From the NCBI GenBank assembly GCA_030426085.1, contig JAUHYW010000010.1, positions 1 through 64,000 of the forward strand: 64,000 nt of DNA. The letters are read 5' to 3'. The position numbers were made by a program, and so were the translations under genes. The number at the start of each line of letters is the position of its first letter. Within the stretch, counting starts at the first letter, position 1. Source of the stretch: a bacterium (GTDB lineage Bacteria; Myxococcota_A; Bradymonadia; UBA7976; UBA1532). The notes beneath the pieces are model-generated. The model ran no database searches, was not told where the DNA came from, and saw nothing but the letters and a program-made list of their open reading frames with translations. Positions 48,172 through 60,269 of this stretch are shown piece after piece.

Positions 48172-48200
48172 TTGCAGCGTGGATCACACGGGCCTACATT
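48172..48200 (+). promoter_or_regulatory. Sigma70-type promoter of the PBP gene
   Basis: TTGCAG (48172-48177), 17-bp spacer, TACATT (48195-48200). The predicted start is about 48207, leaving about 25 bases before the GTG at 48232, with GGAG at 48222-48225. Confidence 0.55.
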
Positions 48201-48231
48201 CGCTCCACCCCTCGTTCTCCCGGAGTGGCGC

Positions 48232-49533
48232 GTGTCGCGGAGCGTTCGGCTGATCGGCCCCTGGTTCCTGCTGATCCACCTCGTGGCCCTGCACCTGGTG
48301 CTGACGTGGTTCGAAGGCGACGCCGACGGCGCGCCGCTCGCCGCCGAGCCGGCCTACCTCGCCGAGTTGGAGACCGCCGAGCCGACCGAGGCCCCGGCCG
48401 AGACGCCCGCCGAGGCGACCGATCGCGAAACGATCGTCCCGGTCGAGCGCCCCGGGCCGCTGGATCTCGGCCGGATCTACACCGACGGCGACCGCATGCG
48501 AGCCGACCTCGAGCACGGGTGGGTCGCCGAGCTGACCACCGTGCCCGACCTGCAGAAAGCGGCCACCCGCATCCTGAACCGGGGCAAGGTGCCGTTCGGG
48601 GCCGTGGTGCTGCTCGACGTGACGTCGGGCGAGGTCCTGGCGATGGCCGATCGGTTCGACGCCGAGCACCCCATCGCCCCCGATCTGGATCCGGCTGGCC
48701 CCCCGCACCTCGCGCTGCGGGCCCTGGCCCCGTCGGCGAGCGTCTTCAAGATCGTGACCTCGGCGGCCCTGCTCGAGGTCGGCGTCTCGGGCACCCGGGA
48801 CTACCCGTTCAACCCGGCGAAGCGGCGGGTCTACGAGAAGACGCTGGCCAAGCCGGGCCCCGGGGCGCCGAAGTCCGACATGGGTCAGGCGCTGGCGAGC
48901 AGCAACAACGGCTTCTTCTCGCGCATGGCCGACCGCAAGCTGGCCCGCGAGGATTTGGACCTCATCTCCCGGCGCTTCGCTTTCAACCGGGTGGTGCCCT
49001 TCCCACTGCTGACCGACGCCAGCACGGCCACCGTGCCCCGCAACCGCCTGGAGCGGGCCCGCATGGCGGCCGGCTTCTGGCACACCCGGCTGACACCGCT
49101 GCACGGCGCGCTGATCGCGGCGGCGGTGGCCGGCGACGGCGCTGTGCCGATGCCCCGGCTGGTGCGGCGCCTCGAAGGGCCCGACGGGCGGGTGGTCGAC
49201 GCCCCGGATCGGGGGCCGCTCACCCGGGCCATGAAGCCCGAGACCGCGAAGACCATGCGGAGCATGATGGCCCGCACGATCTCCCACGGGACGGGGCGAC
49301 GGGCGTTCCAGAAGTGGCCCCGCTCGCTGTCGAAGATCAACGTGGCGGGCAAGACCGGGACCCTGGCGATCCGCGAGCCGTACACCGCCTACACCTGGTT
49401 CGTCGGCTTCGCGCCGGCGGACGACCCCCAGGTGGCGATCGCGGTGATGGTGGGCAACGGCGAGCTGTGGTGGCAGCGGGCGATCGACATCGGCCGGGAC
49501 GTGCTGGCCGACTACTTCCGCCGCCAGGGGTGA
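48232..49533 (+). CDS. Penicillin-binding-protein-type D,D-transpeptidase
   Basis: 433 residues from GTG 48232. One N-terminal membrane anchor (about 8-26) and an acidic Pro/Glu-rich linker precede a transpeptidase domain with all three active-site motifs: Ser170-x2-Lys173 (SVFK), Ser224-Asn225-Asn226 and Lys374-Thr375-Gly376. It lacks the glycosyltransferase and pedestal domains of large PBPs, so it is a compact single-domain class. It cross-links peptidoglycan or acts on another D-Ala substrate. No divisome or rod partner is nearby. An upstream CRP-like site suggests condition-dependent expression. Confidence 0.87.
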   Translation: MSRSVRLIGPWFLLIHLVALHLVLTWFEGDADGAPLAAEPAYLAELETAEPTEAPAETPAEATDRETIVPVERPGPLDLGRIYTDGDRMRADLEHGWVAELTTVPDLQKAATRILNRGKVPFGAVVLLDVTSGEVLAMADRFDAEHPIAPDLDPAGPPHLALRALAPSASVFKIVTSAALLEVGVSGTRDYPFNPAKRRVYEKTLAKPGPGAPKSDMGQALASSNNGFFSRMADRKLAREDLDLISRRFAFNRVVPFPLLTDASTATVPRNRLERARMAAGFWHTRLTPLHGALIAAAVAGDGAVPMPRLVRRLEGPDGRVVDAPDRGPLTRAMKPETAKTMRSMMARTISHGTGRRAFQKWPRSLSKINVAGKTGTLAIREPYTAYTWFVGFAPADDPQVAIAVMVGNGELWWQRAIDIGRDVLADYFRRQG

Positions 49534-50026: not shown

Positions 50027-53000
50027 ATGAGACTCCTCTTCCCAGCCCTGCTCCTCGCCCTGCCGGCCGCCGCTCAGCCGATCTGTCTGGCGGACGACGC
50101 CCGGCTGCCGTTCATCGACGCCGAAGTGCTCGCCTGCGACCCCCCGAGGCTGGTGCTCGTACGCGAGGAGGCGGCCTACGACGCCGAGCTGGGCGAGTGG
50201 CAGCAAGCCATCCTGCTCCGGTTCGCCAACCCCGGCGAAGAGGAGCTGATCGTCAGCGGGGTCGTTGAGCTGGCCGGCGCCGAACTCATCGGCGAGCCGA
50301 GCTATCGAGCGGCCGACTTGCGGCGGGGCGACTTCGAGTGGGCCGTCGCGCCGCTGTCCCACTACGAAGATCCCGGCGACTGCTCAGCGCTGCTCGACCC
50401 GCCGTTGCCCCACCCGACCCGCGGGCTCGAGTTCGGCGATCTGATGCGCTTCGGGCCCGACGGCGTGCGCTTCGAGTTCGCGGCGGCGGCCGATCTGGAC
50501 GACGTCCGGTTCATCGTCGCCTCGCCCGATCCGGCCTCCGCCGGCTCTGTGCGGGTCGAGTTGTTCGACATCCTCACCAGCCCCGACGTGCCGATCCAGG
50601 TCGGCGCGGCCGATGCGAACTGGACGCCCGACGACGGCCTGTACGATGGCCTGCGGGTCACCGCGCGGCTGCGGGAGGTCGATCTGGCCATCCCCCAGGA
50701 CTGCGTCGCGGGCACCAGCGATGGGGGGCTGATCTTCGATCTGGAGGTGCCGGTGGACGCGCCGGCCGATCGGAGCCGGCGGGCGGATCGCAACGGCGAT
50801 CTGGGCCCGGTGGAGGCGCTGGGCGCGCCGTCGGCGCTGCGCTGGCGCCCGAGTGATCTGCTCTCGGCCGATGGGGATGTGCTGCAAGTGGTCGAGCTCG
50901 ACGGGCTGGATCCCGCGCTGTGTGCCGCGGGCGACGTCTCGCTGCCGCTGACCGCCTTGATCGAGCCGGCAGACCTCGTGCCGGACGGCGTCTACGGGGG
51001 CACGATCGAGGTCTGGGAGGACACCGACGGCGACCGCCGCTTCGACGCCAACGAGGCCGGGGACACGGTGCGACTGGCAGTCGTCGTGGGGCCGGATCCG
51101 GGCGAGGACCCCTGCGAGCTGCTGCCCATCGAGCCCGACGCGGGCTTCGACCCGGGTCCGCTGGACGCTGATCGCCCCCCGCCCGACGCCGCGCTGGACG
51201 CCTCGCCGGACGCCGACCTCGACGCGGGCATCGATCCCCCCGACGGCGATCTGCCCGACGCCGGGCTGGATGCCGCCATCGATCTGGACGCGGGGGGCGA
51301 CGCGGCCGCCGACGGTGGGCCTGATGGGGAGGTCGACGGGGATGGGCCGATCCTGCCTCTGCTCGATGGGGCCGTGGACCGCGGGGCGCTGGCCGACGCC
51401 GGACAGGCCGACGGCGCGCCGGATGGAGCCCCAGCGCTGGATGGCGCCGCGGCGGACGTCGAGCTGATGGATGGCGCGATCGACGGGGGCGTGGCGGACG
51501 GCGGCCCTGGGGACGGGGATCCGGGCGACGACGGTCCGGGCGACGAGGGGCCGGGCGACGGGGGGCCGAGCGACGGGGGGCCGGGCGATGGCGGCGCGGG
51601 CGATGGCGGCGTGGGTGACGGCGCACCGCAGGACGGCGCGCCCGGCGACGCCACCAGCCTCGACGCGGACGCCGCGACCGACGCCGATCTGCCGGACACG
51701 TACCCCCCAGCGGACGGAGGAGTCGATGGTGCCCCGACCGACACCGCCGACCTCGACCCCTCTGACGGGGCGCCGACAGACGCGGGCGTGTCGGACGTGG
51801 CCCCGACCCCGGCCGACCCCGGTGATCCCCAGGGCGGCTCTTTGTCCTGCCAGACCACCCCCGGCCGCGGCGGCTCCCCCGCCCTGCTCCTCGTGCTCTT
51901 CGCTCTGCTCGCGTTCCGCCGCCGGCTCCTGCTCCCGGCCCTGCTGATCGCCTTCGCCGCGCCGGCCGATGCCCAGGTCGACGTGCGCCGGTTCACCCCG
52001 ACCCCCGCCTTCTCGCCCTACCTGAACCTGGACGGCGCCGAGACCCTCGGCCCGGGCCGCGTCGGCGCCCGGGTCATCTCGGTCATCGAGCAGCGCCCGC
52101 TGGTCTTCGCCCGGGACGGCGAGCGCACCGTCGACATCATCAGCATCCGTCTCGGCCTCGACACCGCGGTGGCGGTCGGCGTGACCGACTGGCTCGACGT
52201 GGGCGCCAACCTGCCCCTCGTGCTGTTGCAGGACGGCCGGACCATCGCCGGCGGCACGCTGGATGGCTTCGCCCTCGCCGATCCGTCGCTGGCGGCCAAG
52301 GTGCGGTTCCTCTCGCCCACCGAGGGCGTCGGTCTGGCGCTGCGGCTGGGCGGCAGCGCGCCGATGGGTGATCCCGACGCGCTCGCCGGGGAGCCGGGGC
52401 CCACCGGCACCGCCATGCTCGCGCTCGAGCTCCCCGTCTCGAGCCGCTTCGACATCGCGCTCGACGTGGGCTATCGGCTGCGCGAGGCGACCCGGCTGGG
52501 CGACGTCGAGGTGGGTGACGAGCTGCTCTTCGGGCTCGGGGCGAGCTGGCGGGTGACCCCGGCCTTCGCCCTGGCCGCCGAGTTCACCGGCGCGACCGGC
52601 GCAGCGGATCCGTTCGGCGTCGACCAGCAGACGCCCGGGGAGCTGGACGCGCTGGCCCGGGTCGAGGTCGTGGACGAGCTGGCGGCTGTCGTGGGCGTCG
52701 GCGCCGGGCTGCTGCCGGGGTACGGATCGCCGATGTATCGGGCCTTCGTGGGCCTGCAATACGCGCCGCGCAACCACGACTTCGATGGGGACGGGCTGGC
52801 CGATGGGCGTGATCGCTGCGTCGAGACGGCGGGGGTCCCGGTCGAGCAGGGCTGCCCGGCGCCCGCGCGGGTGGCGGCCGCGGTCGAAGAGAAGCCGGTG
52901 AGCCGCGACCAGGACGGCGACGGGCTGCTCGACGCGCTCGATCAGTGCCCGTTCCTGCCCGAAGATCGAGACGGCTTCCGCGACGACGACGGCTGCCCCG

Positions 53001-54094
53001 ACGCGGACAACGACCTCGACCTGCTGGCCGACGGCTTCGACGCCGATCCGCTCGGGCCCGAGGACTGGGACGCCTTCGAGGATCGCGACGGCATCCCCGA
53101 TCCGGACAACGACCGCGACGGCCTGGCCGACTTCCGCGATCCGTGCCCCGACGAGAAGGGCGGCGAAGACGGCTGCCCGACGAGCCTGGCGCCGAGCACG
53201 CCGGACGCCGCGCGCGGGCTGGCCGGGGGCGAAGGGCCACAAGCCCCGCTCGTGCTCGGGCGCACGCTGCATCCCGCCGAGCCGATCATCTTCGAGTTCG
53301 CCCGCCCGGGGCTGACCCCCGAGGCCGGCCCGCTGGTCGACGGGCTCGCCCGCTACTTGATCGAGCACCCCGAGCTGGACCGGGTCGAGGTCGGGGTGCA
53401 CGTCGACGCGATGGGCAGCCGCCGGTGGAAGCACTGGCTCTCCCGGGCGCGGGCGGCGTCGGTCGTCGCGGCGCTGGTCGACCGCGGCGTGCCGCCCGAG
53501 CGGGTGTTTCCCCGCGGATATGGCCCCGAGGTCCCGGTGGACAGCAACCGCACCAAGGCCGGGCGCTTCAAGAACCGGCGGGTCGAGCTGCGGGCGCTGC
53601 TGCCATTCGAAGTGGCCCGACCGACCCGGGCGGTCCAGCCGGATCGATCGCCGCGCCTGCCCCGCAAGCGCTCGACACTGCCTGAGCCCCGCGCCCGGTG
53701 GCTCGCGCCCGACGCCCTCGTCCTGCGGCCGACCGCCCCGATCATCTTCACCCGGAGGAGAGCGAGCCTCACCCCGGGCGCCGCGCCCCGCGTCGCGGAG
53801 CTGGCCGCGCGCTTGAAGGCCAACCCGAGCTGGCGCCGGGTCGAGGTCGGGGTGCACACCGACGGCCTGGGCGACCGCGACTGGAAGCTGCGGCTGAGCC
53901 GGGATCGGGCCGCGGCAGTCGTCGACGCCCTGGTCGCCGAGGGGGTCGAGCGGTCGCGCCTCACGCCGCGGGGCTACGGCGCCACCCGCCGGCTGCGGGG
54001 GGACGACACGCTGGAGGATCGGGCGACGAATCGACGCGTCGAGCTGCGGGTGCTCGACACCAGCGTCTCGCTCGCGCCGGGAGATGGGCGATGA
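50027..54094 (+). CDS. Exported domain + MYXO-CTERM-like signal + barrel + TSP3 + tandem OmpA fusion
   Basis: 1355 residues. Order: signal peptide (1-17); an exported domain (to about 365); a very acidic Asp/Gly/Pro linker (about 370-600); Cys608, hydrophobic helix, Arg631-633, a layout like MYXO-CTERM sorting signals; immediately a second signal-peptide-like segment (LLLPALLIAFAAPADA, about 634-649); a beta-barrel domain (about 650-920) starting VDVRRFTPTPAF; TSP3-like calcium repeats; and two OmpA peptidoglycan-binding domains (about 1085-1190 and 1240-1345) that keep the TD/VD and SRxRA residues. An internal GTG at 51893 could start the barrel part separately, but it lacks a ribosome-binding site. 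Confidence 0.85.
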   Translation: MRLLFPALLLALPAAAQPICLADDARLPFIDAEVLACDPPRLVLVREEAAYDAELGEWQQAILLRFANPGEEELIVSGVVELAGAELIGEPSYRAADLRRGDFEWAVAPLSHYEDPGDCSALLDPPLPHPTRGLEFGDLMRFGPDGVRFEFAAAADLDDVRFIVASPDPASAGSVRVELFDILTSPDVPIQVGAADANWTPDDGLYDGLRVTARLREVDLAIPQDCVAGTSDGGLIFDLEVPVDAPADRSRRADRNGDLGPVEALGAPSALRWRPSDLLSADGDVLQVVELDGLDPALCAAGDVSLPLTALIEPADLVPDGVYGGTIEVWEDTDGDRRFDANEAGDTVRLAVVVGPDPGEDPCELLPIEPDAGFDPGPLDADRPPPDAALDASPDADLDAGIDPPDGDLPDAGLDAAIDLDAGGDAAADGGPDGEVDGDGPILPLLDGAVDRGALADAGQADGAPDGAPALDGAAADVELMDGAIDGGVADGGPGDGDPGDDGPGDEGPGDGGPSDGGPGDGGAGDGGVGDGAPQDGAPGDATSLDADAATDADLPDTYPPADGGVDGAPTDTADLDPSDGAPTDAGVSDVAPTPADPGDPQGGSLSCQTTPGRGGSPALLLVLFALLAFRRRLLLPALLIAFAAPADAQVDVRRFTPTPAFSPYLNLDGAETLGPGRVGARVISVIEQRPLVFARDGERTVDIISIRLGLDTAVAVGVTDWLDVGANLPLVLLQDGRTIAGGTLDGFALADPSLAAKVRFLSPTEGVGLALRLGGSAPMGDPDALAGEPGPTGTAMLALELPVSSRFDIALDVGYRLREATRLGDVEVGDELLFGLGASWRVTPAFALAAEFTGATGAADPFGVDQQTPGELDALARVEVVDELAAVVGVGAGLLPGYGSPMYRAFVGLQYAPRNHDFDGDGLADGRDRCVETAGVPVEQGCPAPARVAAAVEEKPVSRDQDGDGLLDALDQCPFLPEDRDGFRDDDGCPDADNDLDLLADGFDADPLGPEDWDAFEDRDGIPDPDNDRDGLADFRDPCPDEKGGEDGCPTSLAPSTPDAARGLAGGEGPQAPLVLGRTLHPAEPIIFEFARPGLTPEAGPLVDGLARYLIEHPELDRVEVGVHVDAMGSRRWKHWLSRARAASVVAALVDRGVPPERVFPRGYGPEVPVDSNRTKAGRFKNRRVELRALLPFEVARPTRAVQPDRSPRLPRKRSTLPEPRARWLAPDALVLRPTAPIIFTRRRASLTPGAAPRVAELAARLKANPSWRRVEVGVHTDGLGDRDWKLRLSRDRAAAVVDALVAEGVERSRLTPRGYGATRRLRGDDTLEDRATNRRVELRVLDTSVSLAPGDGR
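51500..51630. repeat. Degenerate 15-bp repeat encoding PGDGG units
   Basis: About eight imperfect copies encode pentapeptides of the type G-P-G-D-G, with changes to D, E, S, A or V. It is part of the acidic linker in the fusion protein and a likely site of length variation. Confidence 0.8.
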
Positions 54095-55902
54095 AGCGGA
54101 TGACCTGGGCAGCGGCGCTGTGCGCGCTGGGCCTCGCGGGCGGCGCGTGGGCCCAGAGTCCGCCGGATGGCTACCGGGTCCGCATCGGACCGGCCGATCG
54201 CGCGCCGAGCGAAGATCCGCTGGCGCCGCCCCCCGACGATGGCCGGACGGACGGCGAGCTCGACGAGGTCGAAGGGGCCCCATCGACCTCGCCCGTGGAC
54301 GCCCCGGATCCGAACGAAGATGCACAGCGAGACGAACCCACCGCACCGGCGCCCGGGGCCGCCGAGGCCGGGCGGAGGACGCGGCGAGCCCGCCCGAAGC
54401 GCCGGGCGCTCCGGTGGGGTCGAGGGGAGACGGTCACCCCGCTCGAAGCCGCGCACCGGCTGGAGGCGACCCCTGGCGAGGCGATCGAGTTCGCCCGCCC
54501 GCTCACCTTCCGCCACGACTCGGTCGAGATGACCCCGAACGCTGCGCCGGCGCTCGCCGAGATCGTCGACTACCTCCAAGCGTCGCCCGAGATCCGGCTG
54601 GTGCTGATCGAAGGCCACAGCGACGCGACCGGCGCCCTGCGCTACAACCAGCGGCTCAGCGAGGCCCGGGCGGCCGCGGTGCGCAAGGCGCTCGTCACCC
54701 GCGGGGTGGCCCCCGAGCGGCTGGTGGCCTACGGCTACGGCGAGACCCGGCCCGCCGCGCCCGACCGCGAGGCGAACCGGCGGGTCGTCTTCCGGGTGAT
54801 CGAGGGTGATCGCAAGGCCCTGGTGCGGCGGGTGGCCACCGAGTGGGGCCAGGTGGCCCTGGTCGACGGCCGGGGCGCGGTCGAGGTCGCCGACAGCCCC
54901 GAGTCGAACGCTGATCGGGCGCTCGAGCCGGAGTCGGCGCACCGGCGCGATGCCCCGGCGTCGCAGTCGGCCGATCGATCCGCCGGCCCGCCGACGCCCG
55001 ATCCTCGACGGCCGGACGGGGCGTTCGCCCTGCACATCGCCCCGCCGGCCGCCGCCCCCACACCGCAGCCGGTCACGCCGGTCGCCATCAGCCGGAGCGG
55101 TGGGCCCGATCTGCCCGACGACGCGCTGAGCTGGCGCGCGTTCGAGGCGCGCAGTCAGATCGGCGAGGGCCACGACATCCGGACCGACCGCAGCGGCTGG
55201 GCCCTCCTGCGGTTGCCCGACCTGAGCCGGCTGTGGCTCGGCCCCGGTACCCGCGTCCGCCTGAGCAAGCTCTTCCACGACCGGGCCAACGGCAAGACAT
55301 ACGTCTCGCTCCGCGTCCGGCGAGGCACCGTCCGGGCCATGCTGAACCCGCTCGAGCGCAGTATCTCCCGCAGCCTGATCGCGCTGCCCGGGGGATCCCT
55401 CGAAGCGGTGGCCGCGGACTTCGAGATCCAGCTCGATCACGACGCCACCGGCCGCCTGCGGGTCGATCGGGGGCGGCTCGACGCGGCTGGGGGCGGCGCC
55501 GCGTCGCGGGCCATCTACGCCGGGCAGGTCGTGGGCCTGGGCGTGGGCGACGGCGCGCCCCGGGCTCAGCTCCCGCCGCCGTCGGTGATCTCGCCCCGCA
55601 ATGGCCGCTTCGCGCGGGCCCCGCCGCTGGTGTGGCAGCCGGTCGCCGACGCCGCCGGGTACATCGTCGAGGTCGCCGAAGACGTCGACTTCCATCGCCC
55701 CGTCCTGCGCGCGCGCACGATGCCACCCCGGTTCGAGCCCCGCGTGCTGACGCCGGACCGGGAACACTACTGGCGGATCCGCGCCGTGAGCCGCGAGGGG
55801 CTGCCGGGCGCCGCCTCCCGGGTGCACGCCTTCCGCACCGCACCCCGCCGGGAGACCCCGCCCGCCGCCGCGCGCCTCGACGTGCCCGACGGCGCGCGCT
55901 GA
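54091..55902 (+). CDS. OmpA-FecR domain outer-envelope protein
   Basis: 603 residues; its ATG overlaps the preceding stop (ATGA). Signal peptide (ALCALGLAGGAWA), an acidic Pro-rich stretch, an OmpA domain (about 145-250) with EGHSDATG and LSEARAAAVRKAL, a Pro/Ala linker, a FecR-like domain (about 350-450; IGEGHDIRTDRSGWALLRLPD, VSLRVRRGTVRAML), and a fibronectin-III-like end (LVWQPVADAAGYIVEVAED). It binds peptidoglycan and may support the barrel fusion encoded before it. FecR domains elsewhere sense or regulate TonB uptake; here no sigma factor or TonB receptor is adjacent. Confidence 0.85.
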   Translation: MKRMTWAAALCALGLAGGAWAQSPPDGYRVRIGPADRAPSEDPLAPPPDDGRTDGELDEVEGAPSTSPVDAPDPNEDAQRDEPTAPAPGAAEAGRRTRRARPKRRALRWGRGETVTPLEAAHRLEATPGEAIEFARPLTFRHDSVEMTPNAAPALAEIVDYLQASPEIRLVLIEGHSDATGALRYNQRLSEARAAAVRKALVTRGVAPERLVAYGYGETRPAAPDREANRRVVFRVIEGDRKALVRRVATEWGQVALVDGRGAVEVADSPESNADRALEPESAHRRDAPASQSADRSAGPPTPDPRRPDGAFALHIAPPAAAPTPQPVTPVAISRSGGPDLPDDALSWRAFEARSQIGEGHDIRTDRSGWALLRLPDLSRLWLGPGTRVRLSKLFHDRANGKTYVSLRVRRGTVRAMLNPLERSISRSLIALPGGSLEAVAADFEIQLDHDATGRLRVDRGRLDAAGGGAASRAIYAGQVVGLGVGDGAPRAQLPPPSVISPRNGRFARAPPLVWQPVADAAGYIVEVAEDVDFHRPVLRARTMPPRFEPRVLTPDREHYWRIRAVSREGLPGAASRVHAFRTAPRRETPPAAARLDVPDGAR

Positions 55903-55975
55903 ACCGCGGAAGCTCTGGCATCGGCCGGCGGTCGATGCTACCCGTCGACTGCGGACTTTGCGGAGACACCGCCCC

Positions 55976-56962
55976 ATGGCGCTGCCGAACCCGACCCGCC
56001 TGCCCATCCGGTTGCTCGACGACATGGTCTTCGGCGCCTCCGATCAGGCACGCAAGGCGCACGCCGCCCACCTGCTGCGTCAGGCGGCGCGGGGCCTGGG
56101 CTGGCCGGCCGAGGTCAAGGGGCTGACCCGCCTCGGCGACGGGCTGACCTACGAGACCTTCGCCGCCCGCATCGCCGGCCAGGACGTGGTCGTGCGCATC
56201 CCCCACGGCGACGACATCGACGAACAGGTCGAAGTGGCGACGTCGACCGCGGCCCTGCTCGCCCGCAGCGCCTCGCTGCGGCTGCCCTTCGAGCGCCCCC
56301 TCACCCTGGCGCTCATCGACATCCCCGACGGCATGGCCTCGGTGCAGACCCGGCTCTTCGGGGTGCCGCTGTGGAAGCTGGTGGGGCACAAAAAGGCCGG
56401 CGAGCGGGTCCACCCCGAGCCGTGGAAGGCGGTGGCCTGCGCCGCTGCTGGCGTCCACAGCCTTCCCCGCCACCTGGCCACCGGGCTGCACGTCAGCTTC
56501 GAGACCCGCCGGGCGCACGCCGAGTCGATGGCCGAGCCCGCGGCCTACGCCGACGCGCCGTATATGGACGAGGTCGAGGACTGGCTGACCGACAACCTGC
56601 CGCCTGACACACCATCACACCTGCTGCACGGCGACCTTCTGGGCCAGAACGTGCTGTGGCAGCCGGGCAGCGAGTCGGTGAGCGTCATCGACTGGGAGGC
56701 GGCGCGGCTGGGTGATCCGGCCTACGATCTGGCCATCATCACCCGCGGTCGCCGCAAGCCGTTCGGGCGCACCGAGGGCCTGAAACTGCTGCTCGACGCC
56801 TACAACCGCTCGGCGCCGCTCGAGCTGTCGGAGCGGGCGGTGCGCTTCCACGAACTCTCGCTGATGGCGGCGTGGATCGCCGACAGCGAAGGCGAGAGCG
56901 CGAACGCCGACTACCGCCGGCGGGGCGCGGCGCTGTGGAAGCGGGTCCAGGCCCTCGGCTGA
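55976..56962 (+). CDS. APH/choline-kinase-type phosphotransferase
   Basis: 328 residues from ATG 55976 (GGAGA upstream). The kinase-like fold is shown by the catalytic loop HGDLLGQNVLW (Brenner motif HxDxxxxN), the metal-binding VIDWEAARLGDPAYDLA, and an N-lobe nucleotide region GLTRLGDGLTYETFAARI. Members phosphorylate aminoglycosides, choline, homoserine or sugars, or act on acyl-CoA-linked substrates. Nothing nearby identifies the substrate, and resistance should not be assumed. Confidence 0.85.
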   Translation: MALPNPTRLPIRLLDDMVFGASDQARKAHAAHLLRQAARGLGWPAEVKGLTRLGDGLTYETFAARIAGQDVVVRIPHGDDIDEQVEVATSTAALLARSASLRLPFERPLTLALIDIPDGMASVQTRLFGVPLWKLVGHKKAGERVHPEPWKAVACAAAGVHSLPRHLATGLHVSFETRRAHAESMAEPAAYADAPYMDEVEDWLTDNLPPDTPSHLLHGDLLGQNVLWQPGSESVSVIDWEAARLGDPAYDLAIITRGRRKPFGRTEGLKLLLDAYNRSAPLELSERAVRFHELSLMAAWIADSEGESANADYRRRGAALWKRVQALG

Positions 56963-56971
56963 GGGCCTCGA

Positions 56972-57382
56972 TCAGACCAGAGTCCGGCAGGCCCGCAGGA
57001 TGTCGATGTAGCTGATGATGCCGACGAGCACCCGCTGCCCGGCCTCCACCACCGGCACCGCGCCGATCTTCTGGTCGAGCATCAGGTCGATGACCTCGGC
57101 CACCGGCGTCTGCCGCTCGACGGCCACGACGTCCCCCCGCATCAGATCACCCGCCGCGCGGTCGTAGCTCTTGCGGGCCTCGTCGGGGTTCTCGAAAGCG
57201 GCCAGCACCGGCAACGTCGATTCGCGCACGTCGCGGTCGCTGATCATGCCGATGAGCTCACCGTTGCGCACGATCGGCACGTGGCGCACATCCAGCGAAA
57301 ACAGCAGATCGATGACGTCGCGCACGCTGTCGTCGGGGCCGAGGAATGCGGGATCGGGGGTCATCAACTCGTCGACGGTCAT
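56972..57382 (-). CDS. CBS-domain pair protein
   Basis: 136 residues from ATG 57382, chosen because GGAGGAG lies five bases upstream and CBS proteins often begin with this MTVDELMTPDP segment; ATG 57415 (11 residues longer) is the alternative. Two CBS motifs: residues about 1-60 (VRHVPIVRNGELIGMISDRDV) and 75-136 (IGAVPVVEAGQRVLVGIISYIDIL). Such stand-alone pairs bind adenine nucleotides and regulate partners. It is divergent from the DUF11 fusion gene, so the two may share control. Confidence 0.88.
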   Translation of the reverse strand: MTVDELMTPDPAFLGPDDSVRDVIDLLFSLDVRHVPIVRNGELIGMISDRDVRESTLPVLAAFENPDEARKSYDRAAGDLMRGDVVAVERQTPVAEVIDLMLDQKIGAVPVVEAGQRVLVGIISYIDILRACRTLV

Positions 57383-57477
57383 GCTCTCCTCCACTCGATG
57401 GGTCTCAGTGGACATAGCGGGTCCGACGGTCGGCGGCAAGGGGTGCGCCGCGAGCAGCCCCCGGGGCGGCGCGGCAA

Positions 57478-57507
57478 TTGGCGGCCTCTGCGCCGAGACT
57501 CTATAAC
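57478..57507 (+). promoter_or_regulatory. Sigma70-type promoter of the DUF11-barrel fusion gene
   Basis: TTGGCG (57478-57483), 18-bp spacer, TATAAC (57502-57507). The predicted start, about 57514, falls at the edge of an inverted repeat. Confidence 0.6.
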
Positions 57508-57514
57508 AGGGCAC

Positions 57515-57532
57515 GGTCGCGGCCTCGCGACC
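57515..57532. promoter_or_regulatory. Inverted repeat at the start site of the DUF11-barrel gene
   Basis: GGTCGCG-GCCT-CGCGACC, perfect 7-bp arms with a 4-base loop. It begins at or next to the predicted transcription start, so it could be an operator or, in RNA, a 5'-terminal hairpin that stabilises the message. GAGGAG follows before the ATG at 57555. Confidence 0.55.
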
Positions 57533-57554
57533 GGCGCGATGGACGAGGAGACGG

Positions 57555-60269
57555 ATGGCGGCCGGACGGCGCCATATCGGGGCGCTGGCCCTGTGGAGTT
57601 CGCTGGTGGCCGGCCCGGCGACGGCGCAGGTCATCGCCTTCGAACCCCAGGCGCGAGCCGCCGGTCCGGTGGGCGCGGCCTATGCCGCCAACGCCCTGGT
57701 GAGCTGCGACAGCGGCGACCCCCGCTGCGCCGACGTGCGCGCCGGGCGGGTCGAGATCCAGAACACTCAGATCGAGATGCGCTTCATCGACGCCGACCCG
57801 CTCGCGCTCGGGGACGTGGACGGCGACGGCCGAGACGACACGGTCAACGCCAGCGCGGCCCGGCTCGAGCTGCCCGAAGGCGCCGTCATCGAGCGGGCGC
57901 TGCTCTATGTGGGCGGCATCTGGAGCGTGGACAACGTCGACCGCTGCGGCGAGCCCCGGGCGATCCCGGCCGAGGCCCGGACCCGGGTGCGCTTCGCCCC
58001 GCCCGGCGCGGCGGCCTACGTCGACCTCGAGGGCGCGCTGCTCGGCGACGACGCCCAATCGGTGGGCGCGGGCTACGCGGCGGTGTTCGACGTCGGCCCC
58101 CACCTCGACGGACCGGGGGAGATCTGGGTCGCCGACGCCGCGCTGATCGAGGGCCCCTGCGCGGGCGGCGGCTGGGCCCTGGCCGTGATCTACCGCGCCC
58201 CCGACGCCCCGCCGCGCACCGTCGCGCTCTTCGCCGGCTACGCCCGGGTCAACATCGACGCCCGGGTCGAGGTCACCGCGAGGGATCTGCTGACCCCGCC
58301 CGCCGGCCCGGTGGCCGCCGAGATCGCGGTCGGCGCCGTGGAGGGTGATCGGGGGCTGGCCGGCGATCAGCTCACGCTCGATGGCCAGCCGATCGGCGAC
58401 GGGGCCAACCCGGCCGACGACTTCTTCAACTCCAGCATCACCCGCGCCGGCGAGATCGTGCTGGCCCGCACGCCGGCCCACGCCAACACCATCGCGTTCG
58501 ACTTCGACGTGCTCGCCGTCGACGGCCCGGCCGCCGCCCGGGAGTCGGTTCTGGGCATCTCGACGAGCCGGGACATCGTCAAGGCGTTCTTCATCGGGGT
58601 CGCGATCGACCTGGCGGTGCCCGACGTGGCGCTGACCAAGCGGGTGGAGAACCTCGACCGAGCACCCGGGGAGCCGGCCCGACCCGGAGATCGGCTCCGC
58701 TACACGCTCGAGGCGACCCCGTCGGCCGACAACATCGACGACGTGGTCGACCTGCTGATCGAAGACACGCTGCCCGACGCCCTGGAGTGGATCGAAGGCC
58801 AGCTCGAGGCGCGGGGGCCGGGCGGCGCGTTCGAGGCCGGCGGCGCGAGCCACGACCCCGAGACCCGCCTGATCCGAGCCCGGTTCGCGGGCCCGCTCGG
58901 CCCCGGCGATTCGGTCGCGGTGCGGTTCGACGCCCGGCTCACGGCCGGCGGCCCCGTCGAGAACACCGGCCGCGCGATCTGGTCCGGGGTCGCCGCCGGG
59001 CCCGAGTTCAGCGCCGAGGCCGACTCGGACGGCGACCCCGAGCAGCCGGGCGCGCAGCCCACCGTGGTCGACGTCTTGCGCCCGGATCTGGGGCCAGTCG
59101 ACCAGGGGCCCACCGACATGGCCCCTGCCCTGGACGGGGGCCCGCCCCCGGACAGCGAGCCCCCGACTGACCTCGGCCAGCCGCCGGACGCCGCGGGCCT
59201 CGACGCCGGAGACGACGCCGACGGGGCCGGGGCCGACGCCGGCCGGCGCCGGACCGAGAGCCTGCTGGCCGAAGGCGAAGAGGTCGGCGGTGGCCTGATC
59301 CTGGGCTGCGCAGTCGGGGCACCAGGGCACCCCGAGCCCACGCCCTGGCTGCTCGCGCTCGGCGCGCTCGCGGCCCTGCGCCGCCGACGCGGCTCGCGCC
59401 GCCCCCCGCTCTGGCCGCTCGCGCTGCTCCTCCTCTGGCGCCCGGCGACCGCCGACGATCGCTTCGCCGTCCAGCGGTTCGCGCCGACGACCGACCCGGC
59501 GCAGCACGGCCTGCGCCTCGTCTCCGCGCGGCCGCACCCCGGGCCGCAGTGGTCGGCGACGCTGCTCGTGGACCACGCCGACGACCCCCTCGTCGTGCGG
59601 ATCGACGGCGAGCGCACCCGCAGCCTCGTCGCCGCCCACACCCGGGCCCACCTGCTGGCGAGCGGCGCGTTGAGCGAAGGGGTCGAGGTCGGGGTCGCGA
59701 TCCCGGTGATGCTCGACGCCGCCGGTGACGCAGTCGCCGATGGCCCGGGCGTCGGCGACATGCGGATCCAGACCCGGTTCGTGCTGTGGCAACAGGACGA
59801 GGAGGCGCCCCGCAGCGCGGTGGCGCTGGCGATGGACGCCTACCTGGGCACCGGCGACCTCGACGCCTTTCACGGCGACGGGCTGCGCTTCGAGCCGCGG
59901 CTGGCGGCGGCCCATCGCCTCGCCGGCGGCGTGGACATGCGCGTCAACCTGGGCTGGCAGTTCCGCGACGCCGCCCGCCTGGGCGACCTCGAGGTGGACG
60001 ACCTACTCACCTTCGGCATCGGCGCCGAGATCCCGCTGGGCCCCGGCTGGGCCCTGCTGCCCGAGATCGACGGGGCGCTGTCGGCGCTCTCCGACAGCTT
60101 CGACGCCGCCGAGGCCCCCATCGAGGCGCTGATCGCCGCCCGCTGGGCGCCCACCCGGACCTGGGTCGCGCTGGTGGGCGCCGGCGCGGGCCTCTCGCCC
60201 GGCGCAGGGGTCCCCGACTGGCGGATCATCCTCGGCTTCGGCTTCACCCGGGCGCTGAAGCCCTGGTGA
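57555..60269 (+). CDS. Exported DUF11-type domain + MYXO-CTERM-like signal + beta-barrel fusion
   Basis: 904 residues. Signal peptide (ALWSSLVAGPATA), a DUF3344-like exported domain (about 30-355) with the VLGISTSRDIVKAFFIGVAIDL end, a DUF11-like domain (about 360-475; LTKRVENLD, RPGDRLRYTLE), and an Asp/Pro linker (about 495-560). Then Cys585, a hydrophobic helix and Arg609-612, a MYXO-CTERM-like layout, followed by a second signal-like segment (PLWPLALLLLWRPATA) and a barrel domain (about 635-904) that starts FAVQRFAPT and is related to the barrel of the 50027-54094 protein (shared DGERT and FRDAARLGDLEV/LREATRLGDVEV segments). No OmpA domain here. Confidence 0.83.
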   Translation: MAAGRRHIGALALWSSLVAGPATAQVIAFEPQARAAGPVGAAYAANALVSCDSGDPRCADVRAGRVEIQNTQIEMRFIDADPLALGDVDGDGRDDTVNASAARLELPEGAVIERALLYVGGIWSVDNVDRCGEPRAIPAEARTRVRFAPPGAAAYVDLEGALLGDDAQSVGAGYAAVFDVGPHLDGPGEIWVADAALIEGPCAGGGWALAVIYRAPDAPPRTVALFAGYARVNIDARVEVTARDLLTPPAGPVAAEIAVGAVEGDRGLAGDQLTLDGQPIGDGANPADDFFNSSITRAGEIVLARTPAHANTIAFDFDVLAVDGPAAARESVLGISTSRDIVKAFFIGVAIDLAVPDVALTKRVENLDRAPGEPARPGDRLRYTLEATPSADNIDDVVDLLIEDTLPDALEWIEGQLEARGPGGAFEAGGASHDPETRLIRARFAGPLGPGDSVAVRFDARLTAGGPVENTGRAIWSGVAAGPEFSAEADSDGDPEQPGAQPTVVDVLRPDLGPVDQGPTDMAPALDGGPPPDSEPPTDLGQPPDAAGLDAGDDADGAGADAGRRRTESLLAEGEEVGGGLILGCAVGAPGHPEPTPWLLALGALAALRRRRGSRRPPLWPLALLLLWRPATADDRFAVQRFAPTTDPAQHGLRLVSARPHPGPQWSATLLVDHADDPLVVRIDGERTRSLVAAHTRAHLLASGALSEGVEVGVAIPVMLDAAGDAVADGPGVGDMRIQTRFVLWQQDEEAPRSAVALAMDAYLGTGDLDAFHGDGLRFEPRLAAAHRLAGGVDMRVNLGWQFRDAARLGDLEVDDLLTFGIGAEIPLGPGWALLPEIDGALSALSDSFDAAEAPIEALIAARWAPTRTWVALVGAGAGLSPGAGVPDWRIILGFGFTRALKPW

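Follow-up and report, generated by a model that had tools for sequence, protein, structure and literature searches.

The window, meaning the whole analysed stretch of 64,000 nucleotides, contains two genes (50027-54094 and 57555-60269) in which a signal peptide, a passenger region, a MYXO-CTERM sorting signal, a second signal peptide and a TraB-like beta-barrel follow one another in the same frame (Table 1). According to the ORF translations, each is one uninterrupted frame, of 1355 aa from the ATG at 50027 for protein 1 and of 904 aa from the ATG at 57555 for protein 2. No Pfam domain, PA14 included, was matched in either passenger.

Table 1. Sequence features of proteins 1 and 2; a slash marks the predicted cleavage site
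Feature	Positions	Strand	Basis
Protein 1, N-terminal signal peptide	50027..50074	+	MRLLFPALLLALPAAA/Q, translation; cleavage site predicted from AxA
Protein 1, passenger, Asp/Gly-rich stalk	50075..51832	+	Homology to stand-alone passenger genes in two of three relatives
Protein 1, internal MYXO-CTERM	51833..51925	+	TIGR03901, 26.8 bits (curated cut-off 20)
Protein 1, second signal peptide, ends ADA/Q	51917..51973	+	Sequence
Protein 1, TraB-like outer-membrane beta-barrel	51974..52762	+	NF033763 match, AlphaFold2 model, Foldseek
Protein 1, Asp-rich thrombospondin type 3-like repeats	52763..53206	+	Sequence; boundaries approximate
Protein 1, two OmpA peptidoglycan-binding domains	53291..54058	+	PF00691, two stretches, E 5.8e-28
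Protein 2, N-terminal signal peptide	57555..57626	+	Translation
Protein 2, passenger, weak DUF11-type repeat	57627..59303	+	TIGR01451, E 0.019, below cut-off
Protein 2, internal MYXO-CTERM	59304..59390	+	TIGR03901, 24.4 bits (cut-off 20)
Protein 2, second signal peptide, ends ATA/D	59379..59453	+	Sequence
Protein 2, TraB-like beta-barrel	59454..60266	+	NF033763 residues 13-284, E 8e-19; PF13557, E 3e-5

The initial annotation had placed a MYXO-CTERM in the middle of both proteins, and the TIGR03901 matches, which exceed the cut-off, bear this out, with the Cys codons at 51848 and 59307 as it had read them. In protein 1 the invariant Cys is followed by a hydrophobic helix and by RRR (51917-51925), and in protein 2 by a helix and RRRR; 722 and 292 residues, respectively, lie downstream, so that neither signal is C-terminal. 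The second in-frame segment resembling a signal peptide, ending in Ala-x-Ala and leading into a barrel, was also found in both proteins as described there. In protein 1 the arginines of the MYXO-CTERM are at the same time the basic n-region of this second signal peptide. The junctions read SC-QTTPGRGGSP-ALLLVLFALLAF-RRR-LLLPALLIAFAAPADA/QVDVRRF in protein 1 and GC-AVGAPGHPEPTP-WLLALGALAAL-RRRRGSRR-PPLWPLALLLLWRPATA/DDRFAVQRF in protein 2.

An internal signal of this type is known from MXAN_5598 of Myxococcus xanthus, in which an atypical MYXO-CTERM is followed by a barrel and OmpA within one ORF that includes an adhesin region (mBio 2025, PMC11980579); the earlier statement that MYXO-CTERM signals are C-terminal by definition was thus too strong. 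Its authors described the likeness to TraA plus TraB, proposed gene fusion and internal processing, and termed such ORFs rare (PMC11980579). The protein has been detected by mass spectrometry in vesicle preparations. Compared by this published description, the window proteins have the same single-ORF layout, and they are proteins of the MXAN_5598 kind, an architecture that is already known. Protein 1 shows the complete order of adhesin, MYXO-CTERM, barrel and OmpA in a single frame, together with the barrel, TSP3 linker and OmpA layout of TraB. Protein 2 ends with the barrel, at a C-terminal aromatic residue, and has no OmpA domain, unlike MXAN_5598; it thus has the barrel alone of the TraB layout and all but OmpA of the MXAN_5598-type order. 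MXAN_5598 adjoins ftsA/ftsZ, whereas the loci fetched here showed no FtsZ motif, and a neighbourhood of that type was rejected for them. The closest system is the TraA/TraB pair, in which TraA is a MYXO-CTERM surface protein, TraB its barrel-TSP3-OmpA partner, and the two genes overlap by 4 nt. These are separate genes, while passenger and barrel are fused in the window, where the passengers have no PA14 match in Pfam; relatives of protein 1 share the arrangement of the pair.

Between the two proteins, the barrels align as paralogues (30% over 273 aa, E 3e-22) and no alignment was obtained for the passengers (best E 1.3), in agreement with the earlier view of a shared barrel behind differing passengers. 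With the TraB model NF033763, protein 1 scored 211.6 bits, in a match that covers the TSP3/OmpA part besides the N-terminal barrel, and protein 2 scored 67.0 bits. Since both values are far under the curated cut-off of 700, the barrels are called TraB-like, and true TraB orthology was rejected. An AlphaFold2 barrel model built from six relatives has about 12 long strands (pLDDT 76.8, pTM 0.77); a narrower barrel profile scan, used for the fold, found 4 loci. The closest solved folds were FapF (Foldseek E 4.8e-10) and a COG4313 channel; profile comparison with barrels of this FapF/COG4313 type gave E 0.004, and PF13557 was matched in 8 of 12 members of the barrel family. The fold is alike in these PF13557-like barrels, yet identity is only about 13%, and no evidence of amyloid export by the window barrels was found in this analysis. 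The protein 2 passenger is homologous to that of another fused protein (G048:C3:38807, L122; 28% over 492 aa), whose barrel sits in a different clade from the protein 2 barrel; homologous passengers on barrels of different clades may reflect re-pairing of the two parts.

Both fused orthologues are present in another species of this genus (G209), on one contig, about 7.7 kb apart and free of stops. Identity is 69% over residues 1-1353 of protein 1 and 54% over residues 16-900 of protein 2, and dN/dS was about 0.38 for the passenger and 0.22 for the barrel of protein 1, and about 0.66 and 0.60 for those of protein 2. A sequencing error or misassembly, which the initial annotation had thought unlikely, was rejected on the strength of these two orthologues. 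At neither window junction is there an in-frame ATG, and the GGAG/GAGG/AGGA Shine-Dalgarno motif is absent from the junction DNA of both genes. Protein 1 is a real fusion, because its junction has no stop, start or Shine-Dalgarno match and the sister species is fused as well. In the G209 orthologue of protein 1, the junction does contain an in-frame ATG, with no Shine-Dalgarno match seen, and some internal initiation is possible there. A further fused MYXO-CTERM/barrel junction of G209 (G209:C81:138334-139341, L272) lies inside an open frame of 7322 aa.

In three genomes of the same family (L111, L114 and L102), the gene order around protein 1 is kept, with passenger and barrel as separate genes: a penicillin-binding transpeptidase, a small protein (identified at two of these loci), the passenger, a barrel with OmpA domains, and a FecR/OmpA protein. 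The corresponding flanking genes of the window, the transpeptidase at 48172-49533 upstream and the FecR/OmpA-domain protein at 54084-55902 downstream, are kept in all three relatives. Homology to protein 1 was found for the passenger at two of the three split loci (27-32% identity over about 360 aa) and for the barrel gene at all three (47-52% identity). There, the MYXO-CTERM ends the passenger gene, the stop of which overlaps the barrel start as ATGA, and GGAGG stands among arginine codons just 5' of that start. A start codon and ribosome-binding site at the junction in relatives, a point on which the initial annotation had made its reading depend, are thus present at these three orthologous loci, while the window has neither and the sister species is fused. 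The 4 nt overlap of receptor and barrel genes is likewise seen in the three syntenic relatives of protein 1 and is replaced by fusion in the window. Because orthologous loci of the same family show the ATGA overlap and GGAGG, protein 1 is most simply explained as a two-gene fusion; it most likely arose from two ATGA-overlapping genes, a direction of change suggested by the sequence comparison.

The architecture is widespread across the phylum, not rare. In the survey that had been suggested for the barrel, 151 barrels in 58 genomes were examined at the DNA level: 33 are fused (19 genomes), 14 are split, that is, a separate MYXO-CTERM gene ends just upstream, and 104 are neither. This genome alone has 15 such barrels, 8 of them fused behind a MYXO-CTERM, 1 behind a separate MYXO-CTERM gene and 6 without one; the two cases of the window, both real, are therefore two of eight such loci in this genome. 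With a profile of junction plus barrel, the fused architecture was found in at least 46 of 379 genomes. Start positions among the matches listed were bimodal, with 72 at profile positions 1-4 (fused; median frame 1564 aa; 46 genomes) versus 77 at 9-38, nearly all at 25 or beyond (separate; median frame 640 aa). As the profile was built from fused members, 72 of the 150 listed matches is not a prevalence, and the genome count alone was used, as a lower bound. A quick tree implies 15 or more changes for the fused state, counted mostly without direction; well-supported branches make 9 of these unavoidable. Many of the passengers carry adhesin-type repeats, including TSP3, MopE-type metal-binding motifs, Ig-like domains and DUF11.

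The 50 listed MYXO-CTERM matches of this genome comprise 43 at the C-terminus, one close to it (23 residues follow) and six internal. A second signal sequence comes after each of the six, and it leads to a barrel in three and to a lipobox in the other three (LVGGC, TLLGC and LLIGC). Given three barrel and three lipobox continuations, the junction of MYXO-CTERM and second signal seems to be a general connector rather than one specific to barrels. The lipobox loci, G000:C150:42663 (L234), G000:C155:28903 (L235) and G000:C5:35214 (L236), have frames of 5439, 1874 and 1427 codons, respectively, and their arrangement, an internal MYXO-CTERM followed immediately by a type II (lipoprotein) signal, is undescribed in the open-access literature searched. 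Another family yielded one lipobox case (G188, locus L255). The three-row profile for lipobox junctions had low sensitivity: from 189 genomes it returned its own three loci, G188 and three weak matches confined to the MYXO-CTERM half.

It is quite probable, as judged from the sequence, that each of the two genes encodes a polyprotein, in which a TraA-like lipid-anchored surface protein is fused to its TraB-like barrel partner and from which the two are cut apart. The continuous frame, the motifs, the homology, the conservation and the overlapping separate genes at the orthologous locus were observed directly; from them we infer the topology, both cleavages, the lipidation and the pairing of the products. 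The first signal peptide would direct Sec export of the passenger, until the MYXO-CTERM helix stops transfer and leaves its arginines in the cytoplasm. Together with the hydrophobic segment that follows, these arginines would form the second signal peptide and restart export for the barrel; from the succession of helix, Arg loop, helix and AxA, a hairpin with a cytoplasmic loop is predicted. A myxosortase would then cut at the MYXO-CTERM, where the Cys would be lipidated, and the passenger would reach the cell surface via the type II secretion system. Signal peptidase I would cut after AxA and free the barrel for outer membrane assembly, and in protein 1 the two OmpA domains would hold the cell wall. 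Passenger and anchor would thereby come 1:1 from one translation event, and the single gene probably serves to supply both partners in equal amounts, by cleavage of one translated protein. In M. xanthus, MrtX cuts MYXO-CTERM proteins in a Cys-dependent manner, and type II secretion is proposed to bring TraA to the surface (PMC11980579); TraA and TraB act as 1:1 complexes (PMC12045341). This genome encodes an MrtP-family myxosortase (G000:C169:80791-81759; L243:5774-6895; 374-aa frame, 357.6 bits, cut-off 250) and GspD, the type II secretin.

Translation of the barrel could instead start chiefly at an internal codon other than ATG, such as GTG 51893, the continuous frame being a side effect of stop-poor, GC-rich DNA. 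Such a second start would fit the separate starts of the relatives, the rarity of stops at a GC content near 75%, and the GTG/TTG codons that are present in many of the surveyed junctions. It is nevertheless unlikely. Without a stop in the frame, any ribosome that begins at the passenger has to make the whole precursor, and internal initiation could only add to this; the sister species retains the fusion; and protein 2 has no in-frame ATG, GTG or TTG from the Arg cluster to the barrel. Among the surveyed junctions, 10 of 14 split and 2 of 33 fused ones combine a start codon with a Shine-Dalgarno match (p = 1e-5); 31 of the fused junctions thus lack the combination. Chance read-through of GC-rich DNA was rejected as an explanation, since junctions lack a start or Shine-Dalgarno match and the architecture recurs repeatedly.

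That the junction is left uncut, giving a full-length protein with a two-helix inner-membrane hairpin between adhesin and barrel, appears very improbable. The MYXO-CTERM does lie away from the C-terminus, the position where the enzyme was studied; however, the hairpin would tether to the inner membrane a barrel and OmpA domains whose proper place is the outer membrane and periplasm, the family conserves both the MYXO-CTERM Cys and AxA-like sites, and MrtP is encoded in the genome. A processing site between the parts, as the initial annotation had suggested, is likely in view of the mid-protein MYXO-CTERM and the AxA at the junction. Its comparison with autotransporters holds up less well. Type V autotransporters also consist of one precursor with the passenger before the barrel, and the FapF-like fold is that of a polypeptide transporter, as would suit a barrel that secretes the passenger N-terminal to it. 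In the window proteins, by contrast, two signal peptides are present and a sorting tag stands between the parts, no autotransporter barrel domain was matched by Pfam in proteins 1 and 2 or in barrel family members, and 104 of the 151 homologous barrels have no MYXO-CTERM just upstream. Because the Arg-rich, presumably cytoplasmic loop and the second signal peptide precede the barrel, it should be exported by its own signal, and because they separate it from the passenger, cleavage at the inner membrane should part the two. An autotransporter identity, extremely unlikely on these grounds, was rejected.

The polyprotein reading is therefore the one retained, and it would enforce a 1:1 stoichiometry of TraA/TraB-like partners. 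To our knowledge, it is unusual for a bacterial precursor to be cleaved into two different exported partners. Apparently new, relative to the open-access literature, are the extent of the architecture, its exchange with ATGA-coupled pairs as seen at one orthologous locus, the double role of the arginines, and the lipoprotein variant. More tentatively, though on balance favoured, a general polyprotein strategy of the Myxococcota may be at work, in which the MYXO-CTERM arginines serve as the n-region of the next signal peptide (type I for a barrel, type II for a lipoprotein), an intramembrane protease and a signal peptidase yield two surface partners with different anchors, and genes change back and forth, more than once, between the polyprotein and ATGA-coupled pairs. 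If true, the published view of internal MYXO-CTERMs as rare would need revision for many Myxococcota, and internal myxosortase cleavage would become directly testable. The fusions would also name the cognate barrel for dozens of MYXO-CTERM proteins, as a Rosetta-stone signal, and TraA/TraB would be, as is suggested here, one case of a broad passenger-plus-barrel family.
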